Source: Hamadaea flava (GTDB taxonomy: Bacteria; Actinomycetota; Actinomycetes; Mycobacteriales; Micromonosporaceae). From it: a DNA stretch of 64,000 nt. Shown in pieces: positions 35,844 to 55,618 of the stretch. The notes beneath the pieces are model-generated. The model saw only the letters and a list, made by a program, of their open reading frames with translations, was not told the origin of the DNA and did no database searches. The position numbers and the translations under genes were made by a program. Numbering within the stretch: position 1 is the first letter of the stretch; each line of letters begins with the position of its first letter. The stretch is taken from positions 2,170,001-2,234,000 of the forward strand of contig NZ_JAMZDZ010000001.1 of the NCBI RefSeq assembly GCF_024172085.1, given 5' to 3'.

Positions 35844-36110
35844 TCACGCGGCGACGTCGACGGTCCACATGCGACCTGGGGATGCAAGTTCGCGGTCATC
35901 GCGGTCGAGAACGAGGGTTGTCTGGCCCGTGCGCAGTGTCCGCGGAGTCGCGAACTCGACCCCGAGGATGTGCAGCGCTTGACCGGTCGTCGCGTCGCGC
36001 ATCGCCGGGACGCCGACCGGCTGCTCGCCCTGGAAAGTCCCTACCACCAGCAGCCCACCGCGACTGACGATGTCGAAGACTTCGTCGACACGGAACTGGT
36101 TCGCGCTCAT
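35844..36110 (-). CDS. Small protein coupled to a WXG-like toxin, putative immunity protein
   Basis: An 88-residue beta-rich protein. The N-terminus (DEVFDIVSRGGLLVVGTFQG) resembles the second domain of elongation factor Tu-type beta barrels. The ATG overlaps the toxin stop (ATGA), so one toxin molecule is made with its partner. Position and size suggest immunity, but the fold is not a known immunity family that I can name. Confidence 0.6.
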   Translation of the reverse strand: MSANQFRVDEVFDIVSRGGLLVVGTFQGEQPVGVPAMRDATTGQALHILGVEFATPRTLRTGQTTLVLDRDDRELASPGRMWTVDVAA

Positions 36111-37297
36111 GACAGGATCCTCCTCAACAGTTCTAATGCTGATGATTCCACCGCATAGGCCTCGTCCTCGAGTTCTTTGAGATTCCGCACCAGGTGTTCG
36201 CCGGCTTGCTGCTGCGCTACGTGTTGATATTCGTGGGCGATGGTCGCCGCGAGCGTCTCCTCGTCAACGAAGCTGGCCGGTCCGAACCGGACTTCGGTGC
36301 CGGCCAGTTCGCTTGGGGTGTAGGCGCACGCGTCCATGAAGTCGAGGTAGCGCAGTTCTTCAGGATCGTCGATGATCTTTATCTTGATATTGTCGAGGTC
36401 AACGCCGATCCGCTGCGCGATGGCTTTGATGTTGTCCAGCGTCATCGGCGTGCCCGGTCCCCGTGCGAGCACCTCGGCGTTGCTGAGAGCAGGCGCTTTG
36501 CTGAAGTAGTTTTCGCCGGCGCGAGCTGTCGGGGTATGGGTATGGAGCCGGCCAAGGATCTTCTTGAGCTCGGTGGTCAGTTCGGCGAGCCGGCCGACGA
36601 TCGGGCCGAGGCGGCGCAGGCTGGCGATGAGGGCCTTGAGCCATCGGGCGATCTTGGCAGCCCACGACGCGACCAGGGTGGTGACCTGCTCGACGACGAG
36701 GGGCGTGGCGGCACCCCAGGAGGCGATCAGTTCGGCGGCGTACACGACCAGACGGGACACCGCGGTGGCGATCGCGTCACGAACCAGGATGCGCACGGCG
36801 GCGATGAGCGCGCCAGCCCCTTCGGTGATCGAGGCCATCGCGTCGGCGGATTTGGCGATGCCAAGGATCGCGTCGTGCTGCTGTCGTGCCCAGCCGCGGT
36901 AGGCGTCACCGGCGGGGCCACGCCAGGTTGCGACGGTCCTCGACGCCTCGGCCCGCAGGTCTTCGGCGTCACCTTGAAGGCTCTTGGCGATGTTGCGCCA
37001 GGTCTGGGCATGCCCGGCGATCTGGCCCGGATCCCCGGCCAGCCAATCAAGGGCCTCCGTCAGGGGTTTGACGTGTTCGATGAGCCAGGAGATGCCGTAC
37101 TGCAGTAGCGCGCCGATCGGGTCGGACACAAGGGCGAGCCCGTCGAGGCCGACACCGACGACACCGAGGGTGCCGTCGATCCAGGAACCGTTCTTGACGC
37201 CCTGGGCGATCAGCTCGATGTCTTCGGCGATCCAAATTCCGGACCAAGCGCTGGTCGGCTGTTCCAGGGAGCCAGCGACGAGCGGGTTGATCGTCAT
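36107..37297 (-). CDS. WXG100-like polymorphic toxin with HExxH C-terminal domain (copy 1)
   Basis: A 396-residue protein. Residues 1-240 are helical, with a WXG100-type turn (WRGPAGDAYRGWARQQ near 125-140), and are nearly the same as in the protein at 39421-40578. The C-terminal ~130 residues differ completely and contain TIAHEYQHVAQ, with HEYQH at about 355-359 as a zinc-metallopeptidase motif followed by an acidic helix. This pattern of conserved trafficking part and variable tip is typical of type VII-secreted polymorphic toxins. The gene overlaps the EspC-like gene upstream and the small gene downstream by four bases each. Confidence 0.75.
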   Translation of the reverse strand: MTINPLVAGSLEQPTSAWSGIWIAEDIELIAQGVKNGSWIDGTLGVVGVGLDGLALVSDPIGALLQYGISWLIEHVKPLTEALDWLAGDPGQIAGHAQTWRNIAKSLQGDAEDLRAEASRTVATWRGPAGDAYRGWARQQHDAILGIAKSADAMASITEGAGALIAAVRILVRDAIATAVSRLVVYAAELIASWGAATPLVVEQVTTLVASWAAKIARWLKALIASLRRLGPIVGRLAELTTELKKILGRLHTHTPTARAGENYFSKAPALSNAEVLARGPGTPMTLDNIKAIAQRIGVDLDNIKIKIIDDPEELRYLDFMDACAYTPSELAGTEVRFGPASFVDEETLAATIAHEYQHVAQQQAGEHLVRNLKELEDEAYAVESSALELLRRILS

Positions 37298-47584: not shown

Positions 47585-48184
47585 TCACCGGGCCGTCGCG
47601 GTCTTACGCGCGTTGCGGATCCAGGCGTAGGCGGTGTGCCGGGGCACACCGTAGTGGTCGCTGATGATGCCGGCGTTCTCCCCGGCTTGCCGCAGTACCT
47701 CGCCGAAGTCCTCGGGCATCCGCCGGTACGCCCTGCCCGCCGACGCGGTGGCGGCACCGCCCTTCCGCGCTGCGGACTGGGCGACCGATGTGGCTGCTGG
47801 CTTGGCAAGCGGCGCCCGGTCCGGTGTTGGAGACATCCGCGTGCCGGCCTGGTTCGTCGCCACCGCTGCGACGTTGGAGGACGTGGACTCGCGCCGATTC
47901 GCGCGACGACGGCTTTCCTCTGCCCGGCCGGACCGGCCGTCCGGCGGCGGCGTGCGTGCGATGCGGCTCGCGGGTTCTGGATTCGGCGCTATCGCCGCGG
48001 TCACCGCGGCGACGATCTGGTTCAGGTCGAGGACCGGCAGCCGGGTGGGGTTCAGGCCGCCCGTGTCTCCTGGTGTCAGCCGGAGCTCACGTACCGCCGC
48101 GACCTCACCATCGATGTCGAGCCGCATCGCTGTGGTGGGCAGATGCGGATCATCAGGGGTGAGGGTCACCGTGTACACCGTCAT
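47585..48184 (-). CDS. Protein with C-terminal helix-turn-helix
   Basis: A 199-residue protein. The N-terminal 65 residues form a strand-rich domain (VYTVTLTPDDPHLP), followed by an Arg/Ser/Ala-rich linker and a C-terminal helix-turn-helix (IISDHYGVPRHTAYAWIRNA) of the sigma-factor-region-4 or Hin-like type. GGAGAAAGGCAAGG precedes the ATG. It lies at the end of the dioxygenase operon, 102 bp after the previous gene, and may regulate it. Confidence 0.6.
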   Translation of the reverse strand: MTVYTVTLTPDDPHLPTTAMRLDIDGEVAAVRELRLTPGDTGGLNPTRLPVLDLNQIVAAVTAAIAPNPEPASRIARTPPPDGRSGRAEESRRRANRRESTSSNVAAVATNQAGTRMSPTPDRAPLAKPAATSVAQSAARKGGAATASAGRAYRRMPEDFGEVLRQAGENAGIISDHYGVPRHTAYAWIRNARKTATAR

Positions 48185-48286
48185 GAGCCTTGCCTTTCTC
48201 CGAGCGGCGGGTTTCGAAGCGCCCGCCGACGTGTGTCTCTGGTGCGGGGTGGAGGTTCTGTGCACGGCCGCTGGCGGCGGGGATAG

Positions 48287-48805
48287 TTAGCCGACGTTGA
48301 GCAGGAGGTGGGCCTCGTTGAGGTGTGCGGCGGCGAGCTGTCCCCGGTCCGCGGCGGCGATGAGCATGTCCGCTAGCAGTTCGGTGGTCGCCGCGGGCAT
48401 GAGGCTGCTGGCGGGGTGTGCCCGGTGGCGGATGTGACGGGCGATGTGCTCGGCGCTTTGCACGATGTGTCCTTGGACGAGGTTGAGCCCGGTCAGCAAC
48501 TCGCTCAACAGGTTCGGAGTGAGTGGGCAGTCCCCGGAGCTCAGCCTGGCGGTGAGGTGGTTCACGCAGGCGGCCGCCAGCCGAATCGCCGCCGTTGCCG
48601 CGTCTTCGCCGGCAACGGCTGCGGAGCCGAAAACGCTGTCTGCCAGGCCCTGCAGATCCTCGCCTGACGGGTTGTCGCCGGCGGCGGAGTCGGGCAGGTA
48701 CCACGCCCGGCGCAAACCCAGCTCTGCGGGTGCGTGAATGGATGGTGGCTGGCCGGTCGCCGGATGTGCGGTGCTGCGGATGCGGGCCTTACGGGCATTC
48801 CTCAT
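48287..48805 (-). CDS. Hypothetical 172-aa helical protein in the dioxygenase operon
   Basis: ATG 48805 follows GAGGAGG and overlaps the stop of the heme-dioxygenase-like gene (ATGA). The product is helical (RLAAACVNHLTARLSSGDCP, LLSELLTGLNLVQGHIVQSA) with no domain I recognise. Close coupling suggests that it works with the dioxygenase-like and PLP enzymes. Confidence 0.65.
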   Translation of the reverse strand: MRNARKARIRSTAHPATGQPPSIHAPAELGLRRAWYLPDSAAGDNPSGEDLQGLADSVFGSAAVAGEDAATAAIRLAAACVNHLTARLSSGDCPLTPNLLSELLTGLNLVQGHIVQSAEHIARHIRHRAHPASSLMPAATTELLADMLIAAADRGQLAAAHLNEAHLLLNVG

Positions 48806-50014
48806 CGGCTGACCTCCTCGGGTTGTGTGAGGCCGGGTAGGTGGCGGGTGGCGTCGAGGTAGGCGACACCCTCGGTGGCGCCGGTTCCGGGGGTGGCCGG
48901 GCCGAGCGTGCGGCGGGCGAGCGCGATATGGGTGGTGCGCCACCGGTGGACCCCGTCAACGAAGCCCGCGAGGGCATGCCATAGCCGCTGCGCGTGTTGG
49001 GCGTCGCCGATGCCGGCGATGGCGTGTGGCAGGGTTCGCTGCCCGTTGTGGGTAGCCAGATGCCGTATCTGGGGCATGCCGTCGTAGGCAGCCGACGTGA
49101 GGCGGGCAGACGGCGGCGGGCCGCCGGCGAGGACTTCGACGAGTTTGAAGGCGGCTGATTGGATGGCGCTGGCGCCGTCGGTGTAGACGCGGAAACTCGC
49201 CGAACGCTTGCCGTTGCATGGTGGCGATCAGGGAAAACAGCGGGCGGGTCTCACCGAGGAGCGCGGTCGCCTCACCGATCGCGGCGATCGCCTGGTCGTT
49301 CCGTCCAGTGTTGATCTCGTCGACGGCATGGGCCAGCAGGACTGCGAGCTGCGCGAAGGTGACCTCGAAGGATTGCAGGACCCGGATGAAAAGCCACTCG
49401 TCGTGAGCGCGATAGACCGGCATCATGGTCAGCGGCCACCAATGCCGCTGGGCGGTCGTGGAGCGGTCTGTCACCGCCTGTGTGAGCAGTCCGGCGGCCG
49501 TGTGCGGATCGCCCGGCGGGTCCAGGCAGACGCCCAAGAGCCGTTGGGCCGGTGCCGCTACCGCTCGCAGGGCCAGATGTGCTCGTTTGGTGCGCAGCTC
49601 AGGGTTTGGCCGCAGCAACGGCAGCCGGCGGTCATCGGCGTCGTTGTCCAGGCGCAGTTCGAAGTCGAGGATGTCGGTCAGCAGCCAGCACACGAGCAGG
49701 TCGCGGTTGGCCGCGGCAGGACGCGGATCGACGCACCGGACGGCTGGATTAGGCAGGTCGAACACTGGTAGGGCGAGGTAGGTGTTGTAGTCGTAGCGGC
49801 CGTCGAACTTGTCCAGGGCGCTGTCGAGCCACCGTTGCCGTAGCTCGCCGTCGAGCCGACTGGAGGGCGGGTCGCCGCGTTGCCGGTCGAGGTGACGCAA
49901 TAGCCCTGAGGGCAGGAAGTGCTTGCCGACGCGGTGGCAGATGGCCACCGTCGATTCGGCGGAGAACACGCCTGCCATGGGGTCGCCGCTCGTGATGGGT
50001 TCGCTGATGGTCAT
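48802..50014 (-). CDS. Tryptophan/indole-dioxygenase-like heme protein, one apparent frameshift
   Basis: ATG 50014 overlaps the previous stop (ATGA). The frame is coding to about residue 270 (MQRQAFGEF), where it shifts; one extra T in the TTT run at about 49193-49195 explains the break. The adjacent frame continues RVYTDGASAIQSAAFKL, GVHRWRTTHIALA and GTGATEGVAYL, which match the conserved FRxxTxGxSAIQS, HxWRxxH and GTGGxxG elements of the tryptophan 2,3-dioxygenase/indoleamine superfamily. The corrected length is 403 residues, longer than TDO because of an N-terminal helical extension. The His in HRWRTTH is a candidate heme ligand. Confidence 0.75.
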
Positions 50015-51180
50015 GCGACTCTCCCCACACCGGCGGCTGCTGCTGTGCGGGTGCTGCGGTGGGCTTCGATCGCGTCGCACAGGGTGTTGACGTCGTCGTG
50101 GTTGTTGAACGCGTGGAACGCGATGCGCAGGATCCCGGCCCGGGGTGCGGTGAGGATGTTGTGCCGTTCCAGCCAGTGGGCCAGGGTCTGCGGGCTCGCG
50201 TCGTGCAGGACCAAGTGCGCGCCGCGGTGTTCGGGGTTGGGCAGGGTGAGCCGTTCGCCGCGGGAGCGCAGGCGTTGCGCGGCGTGGTTGACCAGACCGG
50301 TGACGTGCTGGTGGACGGCTGAGAGGTCGAGGCGTCCGATCATCTGCAGGCCGGCGACGGCGCCATAGATCGCGGCGACGGCGGGGGTGCCGGTTTCCAG
50401 CCGGCGGGCCGACGGCGGCCAGTCGAGGGTGAGCGGGTCGAAGTCGAACGGCTGCTGGCGGGCCTGCCAGCCAGTCAGGGTGGGTTTGGGTCCGGCAGCT
50501 GGGCGCCGCACATACAGAAGCGCCAAGCCCGGCAGGCCGAGCAGGTATTTCGACGTTGCGGTGACCAGGTAGTCGCAGTCGAGGCTCGCGACGTCGACGG
50601 GCATGACACCGACGGCTTGGCTGGCGTCGACGAGGAGCTTGGCGCCGACGGCGTGGGCGTGGCGGGCGAGGTCGGCGATCGGCAGCCGCAGCCCGTCGCG
50701 GTAGGTGACCAGGGGGGCGCACACGATCGCGGTGCGTTCGTCGAGCACAGCCCGGTAGGCGTCAACGGGGTTCGTGCCGGGTGGGGTGTCGACGAACACC
50801 ACTTCGCAGCCGCGGACCTGCTGCGCCAGCCACACGTGCGCGATGCCGGGGAAGTCGGACGCGCAGACGAGGACCCGGCGTCGGGCGCCGCGCCAGCGTT
50901 GGGTGGAGGCGACCTGGTAGGCGCCGATCGACACGTTCGGCACGAGGGCGATTTGCTCGGTGGCTGCACCCAGCAGGGTCGCGGCGTGTTCGCGGACGTA
51001 GTCGGCGGTGTTTTCGAACTCGGTCCAGGCCGGGCGTAGCAGGGCGGCGAGCACGGCGTGCATGGCGGCGGTCATCGGTGTCGACGGCGGTGCGATCGAG
51101 CAGGTCGCCAAGTGGACCCGGTATTGCAGGTTCGGGTGCAGTTCGCGCATTTGGTCGAGGGTGAGGTCGGGTTCGTTCAC
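50011..51180 (-). CDS. Kynureninase-like class V aminotransferase-fold PLP enzyme
   Basis: A 389-residue fold-type I PLP enzyme. The PLP lysine is in TATSKYLLGLPG near residue 213, preceded by the Asp/His-equivalent LLVDASQAVGVMPVD near 185. The family covers kynureninase, cysteine desulfurase and isopenicillin-N epimerase. Its position between two tryptophan-dioxygenase-like genes favours a kynureninase-type or C-C/C-N lyase role, but no kynurenine formamidase is present. GTG 51180 overlaps the previous stop (GTGA). Confidence 0.8.
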   Translation of the reverse strand: MNEPDLTLDQMRELHPNLQYRVHLATCSIAPPSTPMTAAMHAVLAALLRPAWTEFENTADYVREHAATLLGAATEQIALVPNVSIGAYQVASTQRWRGARRRVLVCASDFPGIAHVWLAQQVRGCEVVFVDTPPGTNPVDAYRAVLDERTAIVCAPLVTYRDGLRLPIADLARHAHAVGAKLLVDASQAVGVMPVDVASLDCDYLVTATSKYLLGLPGLALLYVRRPAAGPKPTLTGWQARQQPFDFDPLTLDWPPSARRLETGTPAVAAIYGAVAGLQMIGRLDLSAVHQHVTGLVNHAAQRLRSRGERLTLPNPEHRGAHLVLHDASPQTLAHWLERHNILTAPRAGILRIAFHAFNNHDDVNTLCDAIEAHRSTRTAAAAGVGRVA

Positions 51181-51878
51181 GGCCGCCCACCCCGCTGTGT
51201 GGCGCCGGCCGTGGTGCCGTTGTGGGTCATCAGGAGCCGGACTTGCCACAGCATCGCGAAGGCCCGCGTGCCGATCGCGGTGGCGAGTACGTCGACGGGC
51301 ATGCCGCCGGTGCCGGTGCCTCCGGACCCGATGAGGCGGGCGGCGACCAGATGGTGGTGGAAGCGCCACAGGGCGATGCCGCTGTCGAGGTCGATCATGG
51401 TTTCAGCGAGGCGGTGCACCGGGTCTGGTTCGCCACTGCGGTAGACGTCGACTATGTCGACGTCGGCACGGACGAGGTAGGCGCCGAAGACTTCATCGAG
51501 GCGGGTCAACGCTCGCCGGATGTGCTGCCACGCCGGCGATGCCGCCGCTGTGCTGGTGCCTAGGTGTGGGCGCAGCACGTGGTAGTCGTGCAGGGTCAGG
51601 CGGCCGAGCAGCCGCAGCACGCCGGTGGTGGCGTCGACGGTGGCGACAGCGCGGGCCAGCAGCCGCTCGGCTGCTGACGGCTGGTCGCGGCCGAGGTGAG
51701 CGATGGCACGGGTGATGTCCTCGACGGCGACAGACAGCAGCAGTTCGTTGACCTGGTGCACGGTCTGGAACAGGCCTTCGTCGGGGTGCACGCGCTGATC
51801 CTGGGGTCGTCGCAGCGACAGCAGTTCCGGCAGCCGCATGTAGTCGGCATAGGCTGCGGAAGGTGGTACGGATGGCAC
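51177..51878 (-). CDS. Tryptophan 2,3-dioxygenase-family protein
   Basis: A 233-residue protein. The N-terminus ADYMRLPELLSLRRPQDQ with DEGLFQTVHQVNELLL corresponds to the YxxYLxLPxLLxLQ and DExxFIxxHQxYELWF elements of TDO. The C-terminal GSGGTGTGG corresponds to the GSGGTxG substrate loop. It is shorter than typical TDO (about 280). AAAGGAG is seven bases before GTG 51878. It is the first gene of the operon after the peptidoglycan-binding protein gene. It may oxidise tryptophan or a derivative; both copies in this operon are divergent from each other. Confidence 0.8.
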   Translation of the reverse strand: MPSVPPSAAYADYMRLPELLSLRRPQDQRVHPDEGLFQTVHQVNELLLSVAVEDITRAIAHLGRDQPSAAERLLARAVATVDATTGVLRLLGRLTLHDYHVLRPHLGTSTAAASPAWQHIRRALTRLDEVFGAYLVRADVDIVDVYRSGEPDPVHRLAETMIDLDSGIALWRFHHHLVAARLIGSGGTGTGGMPVDVLATAIGTRAFAMLWQVRLLMTHNGTTAGATQRGGRP

Positions 51879-51965
51879 GACCGTTCTCCTTTCTCGATGG
51901 TGATGCCCGGGTTGGGCGATGGCAGTGCTGCCGGGCGGTGGTGTCCGCCCGGCAGCCGGGCGGGT

Positions 51966-52637
51966 TTAGCCGTTGAGGGTGTGGCAGTAGGTGCTGATCG
52001 ACAGGCCGTCGTTGTCGATCTCGCCCTTGAACCGCATGTTGGTGGCGGTCTGCGAGCCGTAGATGCCGTCGGCGGTGATGCCGTGGTAGCGCTGGACCTT
52101 GGTCAGGGCGGCTTTGGTCTTGGAGCCGTAGACGCCGTCGACGGTCAGCTGCGCGAAGCCGAGGTTGTGGCCGCCGACCCAGTGGATGCTGTAGGTGCTG
52201 TAGCAGGCGTTGAGGGCGCGTTGCAGTGCCTTGACGGGTTCACCGGTCGCTCCCGTGCTCATCAGGCATGACCAGCGCGGTGTCCCGTCGCTGTAGCGGG
52301 CAATCGGTGTGGTGATCCAGTAGTGGAACGGGGTCCAGGTCCGGATCCATGGGCTGTACGCGGCGGCCAAAGCGGCGTCGCCGTTGTAGTCGTACTTGGC
52401 CCACAGATAGGACGTGGTGCAGCGTGGTGTGCTCGCCGCGGCGGCCGGTGTCGCGGTGACGACGAGGGCTCCGGCGGCGGTGGCGAGCGCGAGGAGCAGG
52501 CCGGCGATGCGCCGGCGGCTGCGCCCGTGTGTTCGCCGTCCGTCGTCACCGTCGTGACCCGGTCGCGGCGGCCGCGGCGCATGTTGCATCGGCTGCGCCT
52601 GCGGGGTGAGCTGGGTTGTGCCGTGGTTCTGGTTCAT
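51966..52637 (-). CDS. Secreted peptidoglycan-binding-domain protein
   Basis: A 223-residue protein with a basic N-terminus, a signal/anchor helix (IAGLLLALATAAGALVVTAT, then PAAAA) and a C-terminal PG_binding_1 domain (LTVDGVYGSKTKAALTKVQR with two DG(V/I)YG repeats). AAGGAGG precedes the ATG. The export-related fold suggests cell-wall binding. It is the first gene on the minus side of the divergent control region. Confidence 0.8.
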   Translation of the reverse strand: MNQNHGTTQLTPQAQPMQHAPRPPRPGHDGDDGRRTHGRSRRRIAGLLLALATAAGALVVTATPAAAASTPRCTTSYLWAKYDYNGDAALAAAYSPWIRTWTPFHYWITTPIARYSDGTPRWSCLMSTGATGEPVKALQRALNACYSTYSIHWVGGHNLGFAQLTVDGVYGSKTKAALTKVQRYHGITADGIYGSQTATNMRFKGEIDNDGLSISTYCHTLNG

Positions 52638-52901
52638 GACGGGGCCTCCTTGGGACAGGGGGCTTTGCGGGCACGGCGGATCGCGGCCGTGCACCGCGCG
52701 GCCGAACAACGTGGGATCGAAATTGCGCCTAGCGCGCGGCTCCGGCGCGCTGGCGGGAGCGGCGACTGCGCGGGTTGTGCCGCAGGAACGCCGCTGCGGC
52801 GGGCAGGCCGAAGCCCAGCCGCGCCGCGTACCGCTTCCTGATCTGGCCCATCTGCGATCAGCTCCCCGGATTGAGGTGGCGAACACCGCCACCCTCCAGA
52901 A

Positions 52902-52934
52902 TGTATAGCGCATCTAGAAGAGAAGCGCTATACA
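52902..52934. promoter_or_regulatory. Perfect 10-bp inverted repeat in the control region
   Basis: TGTATAGCGC (52902-52911) and GCGCTATACA (52925-52934) are exact reverse complements with a 13-base spacer. The site overlaps the likely -10 region of the plus-strand promoter and is a good candidate operator. Confidence 0.55.
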
Positions 52935-52962
52935 ATCTTGGCTAGATTGCAATACAATCTTG
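52930..52962 (+). repeat. Pair of exact 11-bp direct repeats
   Basis: ATACAATCTTG occurs at 52930-52940 and 52952-52962, 22 bp apart (two helical turns). The first copy overlaps the inverted repeat at 52925-52934. Between them lies GATTGCAATA (52945-52954), also found in reverse complement at 41263-41272. Confidence 0.55.
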
Positions 52963-53093
52963 CGCTTCCGGGTGTGTCCACACCGGAAAGCCCCACGCCT
53001 TCATCGGGCCGTGTCCGCACCGCCGTGCGCGATTCCACCGTGAACCCCTCGCCGCGCCGCGCCCTGCGACGCCAGTGGAAGGAACACCTCGCC

Positions 53094-54365
53094 ATGACCG
53101 TGCTCGTGCTGTCCAACCAGACCGACACCCTCGAACGCGCCCTCAACCACGCCGGACACGACGTCCTCGTCTGCCTCACCGAGGCCAACGCCGCCCTGCG
53201 CGCCGCCATCGACCCGCCGTATCAGGTCGTCACGGTCGACCGGTGGACCGCCTACGACCAGATAGCCGACCTCGCCCGCACCCTGCGCGGCCATGTCGAC
53301 CAGGTGGCCACCACATGGGAAGGCGCGATCGTCGCCGCCGGCCTCCTGCGGGATCTGCTGGACCTGCCGGGCCAGCGCACCGGCGACGCGGTCGCCGCCA
53401 CCGACAAAGCCGTCATGAAAGCCCGGCTCGCCGACGCCGGCGTGCCGGTGGCCCGGCACCGCATCGTCACCACCATCGACGACATCGCCGTCGCCGCCCG
53501 CGACCTCGGCTGGCCCCTGGTGGTCAAACCCCTGGCCGGATTCGGCTCGACCAACACCCACGTCGTCTACACCCTGTCCGACCTGGACTCCATGCGCCCG
53601 GTCCTCGACAAGCCGGTCGCCGCGTCGGCGTTCTTCGCGACCGAACCGGCCTTCACCCCGCTGACCGAGCAACGCGGCATCCTCGTCGAGCAGTACGTCG
53701 ACATCCACCGCGAATACCACGTCGACGCCTGCTGGACCGGCGGCGAACCCGTCTACCAGATCCCTGGCCGCTACAACGTGCCGCCACTGGCCGGCATGGG
53801 CGGCGCCCTCGGCTCGGTGCTGCTACCCGCCGACGGGCCTGAAGCCGGCCCGGTCGTGCGGCTGGCCGAACACGCCGCCCGGACCCTGGGCATCCGCGAC
53901 GGATTCACCCACACCGAGATCTACCTCGACTACGCCGGACGCCACATCGTCGGCGAGGTCGCCGCCCGCCCCGGCGGCGGCGGCATCCAGCGCAGCCTGC
54001 ACCACGCCTACGGCCTGGACATCGCAACCCTGCTCGCCCACAGCGCCGCCGGACAACCGATCAAAGCCGACCTACGCCCCCGGCCCGGCGTCTACGGCTG
54101 GGTGGGCCCCTACGTGCCCGACGGCACCATCACCACCATCGGCGCCCCCGAAGCCATCGAACGCCAGCCCGGCGTCATCGAAGCCACCGTCAAAGCCAAG
54201 ACCGGCGGGGTCGGTGGCATGACCGGCACCGGCCTGTGGGCCGGCGCCGCAGGGTACGCGTTCCTGCGCGGCTCGACCGTCGAGCACGTGCTGCAACTGA
54301 TGCCCCGCGCCGTCGAAGCGTTCGCCATCCGCGTCACACCCACTCGACCGGAGCTGCTGCGATGA
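53094..54365 (+). CDS. ATP-grasp ligase
   Basis: A 423-residue ATP-grasp enzyme. The ATP-binding Lys is in WPLVVKPLAGFGSTNTHVVY near residue 145, and the metal-binding end is GFTHTEIYLDYAGRHIVGEV near 280 with AARPGGGG. These match carboxylate-amine ligases of the dapdiamide/BacD type and DUF4343-like ligases. It probably forms an amide or peptide bond using an amino acid. The ATG at 53094 follows GGAAGGA. Its stop overlaps the MFS start. Confidence 0.85.
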   Translation: MTVLVLSNQTDTLERALNHAGHDVLVCLTEANAALRAAIDPPYQVVTVDRWTAYDQIADLARTLRGHVDQVATTWEGAIVAAGLLRDLLDLPGQRTGDAVAATDKAVMKARLADAGVPVARHRIVTTIDDIAVAARDLGWPLVVKPLAGFGSTNTHVVYTLSDLDSMRPVLDKPVAASAFFATEPAFTPLTEQRGILVEQYVDIHREYHVDACWTGGEPVYQIPGRYNVPPLAGMGGALGSVLLPADGPEAGPVVRLAEHAARTLGIRDGFTHTEIYLDYAGRHIVGEVAARPGGGGIQRSLHHAYGLDIATLLAHSAAGQPIKADLRPRPGVYGWVGPYVPDGTITTIGAPEAIERQPGVIEATVKAKTGGVGGMTGTGLWAGAAGYAFLRGSTVEHVLQLMPRAVEAFAIRVTPTRPELLR

Positions 54366-55618
54366 GCACCACCACCGTCATCGCCCAGGTCGTGTCCACC
54401 CCCGACGCAGCCTTGGAAACCGCCGGCTGGTGGGCCCGCCGCTTCGGCGGACTACCCACCACGTTCTGGCGGCTGATGGCCGGAGTCGGCGCGGCCCGGC
54501 TCGGGTTCGTCGTCGTGCCGTTCCTGGCCTTCTGGCTCACCAGCGACCAGCACTACACGCCGGTCCAGGTCGGCTGGGTGATGACCGCGTTCGGCACCGG
54601 CTGGATGATCGCCATGCCTCTCGGCGGGTGGCTGGCCGACCAGATCGGCCGCCGAGCGACCATCACCACCACCGCGGCGTGCGCCGCGGGCAGCTACCTG
54701 CTCCTCGGCGGCGTGCACGGCCTACCGGCCACCATCGCCGCCGCGCTTCTGGTCGGAGTCGGTTTCGACGCCTACCGGCCCGCCGTCCAGTCCACCATCA
54801 CCGACACCCTTCCCAACACAGATCGCGGCCGCGGGCTCGCTCTGCTGTATCTGGTGATGAACCTTTCCCGGCTGGCCGCTTGCGCTCTCGGCGGACTATT
54901 GGCCAGCGGCGCGGGGTTCCGGTGGCTGTTCACGGCCAACGCCGCCGCCAACCTTGGCCTGGCCGCCGTCGCCTGGCGGGTCGTCCCGGCCCGCGAACCC
55001 CGCCCCACCCGGCCGGTACGAGCACGATCGGCAGGCTACGGCTGCGTGTTCGTGGGGTTCACCGCGATCACACTCGTCTTCTACACCGTGCACATGCAGA
55101 GCATGGTCGCCCTGCCGGTGATGCTCGGCCACGCCGGGGCCACCCCAGCGCTCTACGGACTTCTGCTGGCCCTCGACCCGCTCGTGGTCGTGGTCGTGCA
55201 ACTCGTCGCGCAGCAGTGGCTCACCCGCACACCCACGCTTCTGGTCAGCGGACTCGGCGTCGCCGTCGTCGGAACCGGACTCGCCCTCACCGGACTGAGC
55301 CCCAGCCTCGGCTGGGCTGCGGCCACCATCCCAATCTGGGTCGCCGGCGAGGTCGCGTTCCTCACCGCCGCACCCGCCGTCATCGCCACGCTCGCCCCAG
55401 CCGACCAACGGGGCCGCTACTTCGGCATCTGGGGCGCCACCCAAGGCACCGCAGCCGTCGCCGCACCCCTGCTCGCCGCCGCAGCCGCCGGATCAGACCT
55501 GCTCTGGATCGCCGGCGGCATCAGCGGACTCGCCGCGGCGATCGGCTGCCTCGCACTGCACCACGCAACCACCCACCGCGGCGCCGCACCGGCTTGCCTG
55601 GAAGGACCCACAGCATGA
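54362..55618 (+). CDS. Major facilitator superfamily exporter
   Basis: A 418-residue protein with twelve hydrophobic segments and the MFS loop motif GGWLADQIGRR near residue 90. It belongs to the drug-efflux-like MFS class. The ATG overlaps the ATP-grasp stop (ATGA), and the stop overlaps the next ATG. It likely exports the product of the ATP-grasp pathway. Confidence 0.85.
   Translation: MSTTTVIAQVVSTPDAALETAGWWARRFGGLPTTFWRLMAGVGAARLGFVVVPFLAFWLTSDQHYTPVQVGWVMTAFGTGWMIAMPLGGWLADQIGRRATITTTAACAAGSYLLLGGVHGLPATIAAALLVGVGFDAYRPAVQSTITDTLPNTDRGRGLALLYLVMNLSRLAACALGGLLASGAGFRWLFTANAAANLGLAAVAWRVVPAREPRPTRPVRARSAGYGCVFVGFTAITLVFYTVHMQSMVALPVMLGHAGATPALYGLLLALDPLVVVVVQLVAQQWLTRTPTLLVSGLGVAVVGTGLALTGLSPSLGWAAATIPIWVAGEVAFLTAAPAVIATLAPADQRGRYFGIWGATQGTAAVAAPLLAAAAAGSDLLWIAGGISGLAAAIGCLALHHATTHRGAAPACLEGPTA

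Follow-up and report, generated by a model that had tools for sequence, protein, structure and literature searches.

Known systems and the locus

Tryptophan 2,3-dioxygenase (TDO), the 2-oxindole-forming monooxygenase MarE of maremycin biosynthesis, kynureninase and the L-amino acid ligases are the described systems closest to the locus of Hamadaea flava analysed here. The locus lies in a stretch of 64,000 nucleotides (the window), which covers 2.170-2.234 Mb of an 8.86-Mb genome assembled as a single contig, and it consists of two facing operons that divide at a 456-bp control region (52638-53093). The minus operon encodes, in order, a peptidoglycan-binding protein, a compact TDO-like protein (TDO1), a pyridoxal 5'-phosphate (PLP) enzyme, a second TDO-like protein (TDO2) and two proteins without an assigned family; the plus operon encodes an ATP-grasp ligase and a major facilitator superfamily (MFS) transporter. 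We see about an even chance that these genes form a specialised-metabolite cluster around a conserved TDO1-PLP-TDO2 module, in which a tryptophan-type amino acid would be oxidised, ligated and exported.

TDO1 (51177..51878, minus strand; 233 aa) is a putative heme enzyme of the TDO/MarE type. It is similar in fold to the TDO of Xanthomonas campestris (2nw7), and its residues F37, H41, R103 and H175 align with F51, H55, R117 and H240 of that structure, where we take H55 and H240 to be the distal and proximal heme histidines and R117 to be the carboxylate arginine. The four residues are invariant in 29 alignment rows, window included, which we count in favour of the proposed cluster. TDO1 matches PF03301 with 60.8 bits (gathering score 34.9; E 1.9e-16), but differs from TDO in being shorter and in scoring far under the cut-off of the trp_2_3_diox equivalog (92.6 vs 390.7 bits). 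The TDO1 model (pLDDT 86.6) has MarE (9ca3) as its best PDB match with a TMq of 0.84, followed by TDO, and the identity to MarE in the structural alignment is 21-23%. According to its description (PMC11904535), MarE is without the alpha-F and alpha-G helices of TDO, which accords with the short length of TDO1, and carries a loop SLGGR, where TDO1 keeps GTGG. By the TDO1 sequence profile, on the other hand, MarE scores worse than TDO (E 5.2e-21 or better for MarE and 5.8e-40 for 2nw7).

TDO2 (48802..50014, minus strand; 403 aa when read through a frame break discussed below) is predicted to be a heme enzyme resembling IDO and TDO that has a helical domain at its N-terminus. It shares with TDO the proximal histidine and the arginine: R275 and H362, which correspond to R117 and H240 as mapped on 1yw0, are invariant in 32 rows with the window read through, which also supports the proposed cluster. 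It differs from TDO by some 160 additional residues before the matching region and by a leucine (L213) at the distal position, found in 32 of 32 rows. With respect to the wider superfamily of heme-dependent aromatic oxygenases (IDO, PrnB, SfmD, and tyrosine and tryptophan hydroxylases), the core with its histidine-ligated heme is alike and the TDO2 model also matches IDO1, whereas the solved chains that the TDO2 profile matches at E 0.01 are all TDOs (1yw0 best, E 6e-20), in a comparison set that stops short of the bacterial heme-dependent tryptophan hydroxylases and the furylalanine-forming RhzB. The model (pLDDT 86.1, pTM 0.90) has as its best PDB match a TDO, 2nox (TMt 0.65, Foldseek E 1.1e-3), with IDO1 next. 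Since no Foldseek match in the PDB reaches E 0.001 or below, TDO2 is regarded as a divergent member of the superfamily.

Two further comparisons concern the locus as a whole. The antimycin and actinomycin pathways have homologs of TDO and kynureninase placed within the biosynthetic cluster, as at the window locus. In these clusters TDO is presumably single and canonical, and they are not known to have a second TDO-like protein or an ATP-grasp ligase as the main assembly enzyme. The L-amino acid ligases, such as 4wd3 and BacD, resemble the predicted ligase of the window in that 4wd3 is its best solved match and a transporter gene adjoins it; the window protein differs in being coupled to an oxidative module.

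Occurrence of the module

A search with TDO2 in 300 genomes of the family gave matches in 123 at E ≤0.001, many of the weak ones resembling ordinary TDO genes. A scan of named-species genomes with the PLP alignment confirmed 218 loci, of which the best 80 were kept. The set used for counting contains 107 loci, in which some genomes appear twice and which were selected through matches to TDO2, PLP or ATP-grasp rather than to TDO1.

The three-gene core is common. TDO2 is present in 57 of the 107 loci, and 54 of those 57 also contain TDO1. In 26 of the 29 loci other than the window that came from the TDO2 search, TDO1 and the PLP gene lie within 1.5 kb of TDO2, either in the order TDO1-TDO2-PLP (type A, 16 loci) or in the order of the window, TDO1-PLP-TDO2 (type B, 10 loci). 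Among the 54 loci with both TDO-like genes, the PLP enzyme is of type B in 46, including the window, and of type A in eight. The hosts are Actinomycetota, two Chloroflexota metagenome-assembled genomes (MAGs) and one betaproteobacterium.

The exact combination seen in the window is rare. It recurs in a Catenulispora MAG (locus L076), where genes for an ATP-grasp protein (51% identical), an MFS protein (50%), a small secreted protein, two peptidoglycan-binding proteins, TDO1 (46%), the PLP enzyme (53%) and TDO2 follow one another on one strand; the two peptidoglycan-binding homologs (44% and 32%) are immediately upstream of TDO1. TDO2 of L076 is in one frame, shares 42% identity with that of the window and 47% with the type A copy described next, and is the sister of the window protein in the tree (97/96), in which both branches are long and flagged by the tree tool.

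An intact type A cluster with an O-methyltransferase-family gene is also present in the genome of H. flava itself (L008:10137-14158, 1.472-1.476 Mb); type A forms one clade in the tree. Its module genes (1.473-1.476 Mb) are 41% (TDO2), 42% (TDO1) and 34% (PLP) identical to those of the window. On the trp_2_3_diox equivalog, its intact TDO1 and TDO2 score 118 and 63.2 bits against the cut-off of 390.7.

The reading-frame break in TDO2

A problem arises with TDO2 of the window: the gene is split over two frames, with residues 1-274 in frame 1 and residues from about 271 to 403 in frame 2 (read-through numbering), the change falling at about 49196-49203. In the family search the gene of the window came back in two pieces. 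The frame-1 open reading frame (ORF) alone has no Pfam match at E 0.1, and the frame-1 part scores 12.4 bits on the equivalog; the read-through protein of 403 aa was used for the comparisons. Frame-1 ORFs of 588 or 352 aa were considered as the whole gene and were ruled out by the frame change.

Beyond the break the gene is hardly decayed. The codon score per codon is 0.335 before and 0.326 after the break, where the other two frames are negative, in a model whose training data included the opening portion of the gene, and GC3 is 0.82 before and 0.83 after. The window protein matches 24 of the 25 post-break positions that are invariant in 54 other rows, H362 included, the exception being position 296. 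Because codon bias and the heme histidine are kept past the break, the frame change points to mutation of recent date, to an error in the assembly or to recoding at this site.

A serious, though somewhat improbable, alternative is that the break is real and that the cluster here is a recent loss-of-function remnant, its pathway switched off or yielding a shunt product that lacks the second oxygen. The frame change is clean and lies within a conserved segment, TDO2 is one ORF in all 31 named-species TDO2 loci, and the one-contig assembly, rated 100% complete, speaks weakly against many indel errors. Apparently broken copies exist elsewhere, so that the window is not unique in this respect and such breakage may be recurrent: one match (G297:C2:1832661-1833775) splits over two frames, and stop codons occur within the matches of G047, G067 and G084 (one TGA each) and of G006 (two TGA). 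Against a remnant stand the codon score and GC3, with the qualification on training given above, the retained invariant positions and the adjoining genes, which look intact; a single-base assembly error could also account for the break. For the sequenced strain to have the whole pathway, the break would have to be either bypassed or an error of the assembly.

The earlier note on this DNA had described two TDO-like heme enzymes in a gapless minus operon. Both proteins do belong to the superfamily with their proximal heme ligands conserved, so neither has lost its heme-binding histidine, and 4-base overlaps occur at three junctions (TDO1/PLP, PLP/TDO2 and TDO2/172-aa gene). TDO2, however, is not one gene as read here, and the first gene of the operon (52637-51966, PF01471) had been missed.

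The PLP enzyme and the kynurenine pathway

The PLP enzyme (50011..51180, minus strand; 389 aa) is a fold-type I protein related to kynureninase and SufS (Aminotran_5, E 1e-33). By profile its best solved relative is the kynureninase 1qz9 (E 1.3e-46), followed by SufS-type desulfurases. It shares with 1qz9 the PLP lysine (K211) and the carboxylate arginine (R352), which are kept in 52 of 52 PLP relatives from TDO2 loci. The residues at Asp132, His204 and Tyr226 of kynureninase, which have catalytic roles there, are replaced in all 52, although the D132 column is alignment-dependent, one profile alignment placing that residue in an insertion. The enzyme also falls under the kynureninase cut-off of TIGR01814 (55.7 vs 246.4 bits). 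By contrast, the kynureninase encoded at 6.066 Mb in the same genome has D132, H204 and Y226 and exceeds the cut-off with 248.7 bits. The window enzyme was thus ruled out as a kynureninase by signature, and the term kynureninase-like, used for it in the earlier note, holds for its ancestry and implies no demonstrated activity.

The note had also pointed out that other kynurenine-pathway genes are missing. This is true of the locus but not of the genome, in which a TDO-type gene of the ordinary kind (PF03301, E 8.6e-32) and the kynureninase gene are found 0.6 kb apart at 6.065 Mb, together with two matches to the cyclase family PF04199 elsewhere. As this TDO-type gene and the kynureninase stand apart from the locus, the locus is taken not to be the housekeeping pathway.

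The same evidence bears on whether the module might be a pathway-specific kynurenine route, in which TDO, kynureninase and hydroxylase lead to an anthranilate or 3-hydroxyanthranilate unit with a formamidase supplied from elsewhere in the genome. Such a route would fit the nearest solved relative of the PLP enzyme and the genes that accompany many related modules: an FAD aromatic hydroxylase gene frequently comes after the module in Streptomyces and other actinomycetes (19 of the 31 named-species TDO2 loci), and 18 of the 31 have a cyclase-family gene whose match to arylformamidase is weak (E 6.4e-8). A pathway-specific kynureninase is also mentioned for antimycin (PMC3869250). The replacement of all three kynureninase residues in every one of the 52 relatives, when all three are present in the kynureninase at 6.066 Mb, makes this route doubtful in our judgement.

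PLP relatives also occur apart from TDO2. One (L175:9965-11155), on a Streptomyces plasmid, adjoins a gene for a KedN5-family radical SAM methyltransferase in a stretch with no annotated TDO. Others (L104, L092, L111, L091 and L085) lie beside a helix-turn-helix regulator or permease-like gene, some with a cyclase-family gene, and these gene sets look catabolic by labels assigned by eye.

One oxygenase or two

Instead of acting in succession, TDO1 and TDO2 might together make up a single hetero-oligomeric heme oxygenase, each as one of its subunits. The occurrence data speak for this, since TDO1 accompanies TDO2 in 54 of 57 loci and is found without it in one of the 107, in a set not selected by TDO1. 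In MarE, moreover, the active site is lined by residues of a neighbouring subunit and the overall structure is like that of tetrameric TDO (PMC11904535). However, each of the two proteins has its own proximal histidine and, in its N-terminal part, its own Y-x-x-Y motif, and three TDO2 genes have no TDO1 in their 20-kb loci. With these points on either side, we consider a single hetero-oligomer rather unlikely. The related idea that TDO2 borrows the N-terminal aromatic motif from TDO1 was discarded, as the alignment shows a Y-x-x-Y motif in TDO2 itself.

Putative ligase and exporter, and control region

The plus operon consists of the ATP-grasp gene (53094-54365; 423 aa) and the MFS gene (54362-55618; 418 aa). 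The ATP-grasp and MFS families given in the earlier note are confirmed. The ATP-grasp protein is a putative enzyme of the L-amino acid ligase type, with 4wd3 as its best solved relative (E 1.3e-37); CPSase_L_D2 is the sole Pfam match over its cut-off (23 vs 19.8 bits), and ATP-grasp_4 (26.9 vs 27) and LAL_C2 (21.7 vs 29.4, E 2.4e-4) remain below theirs. The MFS protein (PF07690, E 2.5e-36) is a probable exporter, a direction of transport that we infer. Among 394 genomes of the class, the ligase has homologs with more than 40% identity in its own genome only, and matches at E 1e-20 in nine, its own included. A paralogous ATP-grasp and MFS pair lies at 3.374-3.376 Mb of the same genome (L166:7869-10318; 57% and 60% identical), with no TDO genes.

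The control region (52638..53093) contains a near-palindrome (52898-52915 and 52921-52938), direct repeats at 52927 and 52949, and a promoter-like site on the plus strand (52929-52958), the one such site in 51800-53150, where shuffled sequences have a mean of 0.1. That the divergent operons have one repeat-bearing control region in common is counted in favour of the cluster. Its motif occurs in three copies within 67 bases at the window locus, gives at most scattered single matches in other loci (≤3 mismatches), and was found neither in L076 nor beside the paralogous ligase pair of L166; for this reason the repeats themselves are kept out of the main evidence.

It is very unlikely that the two operons are adjacent by accident, as the stand-alone paralogous pair might suggest, given the colinear set with two peptidoglycan-binding genes in L076, the control region common to both operons, and the association of ATP-grasp genes with the module in other branches, though those ligases are just 23-31% identical to that of the window.

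Partner genes in related clusters

This association is seen in the named-species loci, where an ATP-grasp gene lies within 10 kb in 13 of the 31 TDO2 loci and in none of the 49 PLP-only loci (Fisher p 6.5e-7, uncorrected for relatedness; contig ends truncate some loci, and part of the ATP-grasp references were taken from these clusters). Counting the families searched, 11 of the 57 TDO2 loci have an ATP-grasp gene immediately upstream of TDO1 and in the same orientation. A class IV aminotransferase gene and a methyltransferase gene are each present in 12 of the 31.

In many Micromonospora loci a gene for the oxygenase domain of a nitric oxide (NO) synthase (E 5.5e-112) comes after the module, as does one for a small secreted protein. 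NO synthase is found in 11 of the 46 type B loci, including L042:7555-12392, with two genomes counted twice. On a plasmid of M. zamorensis (L174:5600-13857), the module is preceded by genes for NO synthase and a flavohemoglobin-like protein and followed by an MFS gene. As TDO2 is labelled a hypothetical protein in the one annotated record, that of this plasmid, the module may escape genome-mining tools. All three small secreted proteins inspected from NO synthase clusters (L042:11901-12392, L047:7571-7999 and L040:7699-8166) have G-D-W or G-E-W at the extreme C-terminus. A role in the pathway was considered for the organism's own NO synthase at 3.345 Mb; no other gene in its 20-kb stretch matched window or cluster proteins.

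Proposed pathway

The genes, their families, the conservation of residues and the co-occurrence are established by computation, and from these we infer the substrate, the order of reactions, the product, its ligation and its export. TDO1, having the substrate and heme residues of TDO, would oxygenate the indole of tryptophan or of a derivative, either with ring opening as in TDO or by mono-oxygenation as in MarE. The PLP enzyme, which keeps the carboxylate-binding arginine, would next act on the resulting alpha-amino acid, probably by a chemistry other than that of classical kynureninase. TDO2, as a second histidine-ligated heme enzyme with a distal leucine, may then add another oxygen. In this branch, an amino acid would be joined to the product by the ATP-grasp enzyme and the conjugate exported by the MFS protein, with the secreted peptidoglycan-binding protein as a possible accessory.

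In favour of this pathway are the conserved residues, the recurrent module and the common control region, and the biosynthetic character that the earlier note had proposed for the locus is supported. Both operons occur, colinear with peptidoglycan-binding genes, in another genus (L076), and the core is found in many genomes, although the exact set was seen in two genomes only. Several observations weigh against the pathway. The second of these two genomes is a MAG, and its locus is without the control-region motif. TDO2 is split in the window and its fold match is modest, the three kynureninase residues are absent from the PLP enzyme and its relatives, and the pair at 3.374-3.376 Mb indicates that ligase and MFS protein can work without the module. 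No ATP-grasp gene is nearby in 18 of the 31 named-species TDO2 loci, and PLP-only loci also carry the cyclase family (9/49) and the FAD hydroxylase (3/49).

A broader proposal, to which we attach a low probability, is that TDO1-PLP-TDO2 is an undescribed unit, plasmid-borne at least once, that remodels a tryptophan-type amino acid by two heme oxygenations around a non-kynureninase PLP step and is followed by lineage-specific finishing, namely ligation to a dipeptide-like product here and, in Micromonospora, reaction with NO from the adjacent synthase to a nitro, nitroso or N-N bonded product. No recognisable description of the module was found in the papers searched, few of them from subscription journals, which makes this a weak negative. 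The enzymes come from known superfamilies, and it is the combination and the second TDO-like protein that appear to be new. The recurring pair of divergent TDO-superfamily proteins with a common PLP partner points to an uncharacterised tryptophan-derived building block, and the link to NO synthase in Micromonospora, with the flavohemoglobin-like gene of the plasmid, offers a testable case of NO used in biosynthesis.

Other features of the window

The peptidoglycan-binding-domain protein that opens the minus operon (51966..52637, minus strand; 223 aa) matches PF01471 with E 8.7e-13 on the longer ORF 51966-52913, and its secretion was judged by eye from the sequence. Downstream of TDO2, a protein of 172 aa (48287..48805, minus strand), whose gene overlaps the end of TDO2 by four bases, has no match in Pfam or NCBIfam at E 0.1. 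The next protein, of 199 aa (47585..48184, minus strand), has a weak helix-turn-helix match below the cut-off (HTH_23, E 0.012), and its membership of the cluster is uncertain. No tRNAs and no Rfam families at gathering score are found in the 64-kb window. Further away, a gene at 36107-37297 encodes a WXG100-like protein with an eCIS_core match barely over the cut-off (23.4 vs 22 bits), and it belongs to one of two gene sets, at 36-38 and 39-41 kb, that mirror each other.

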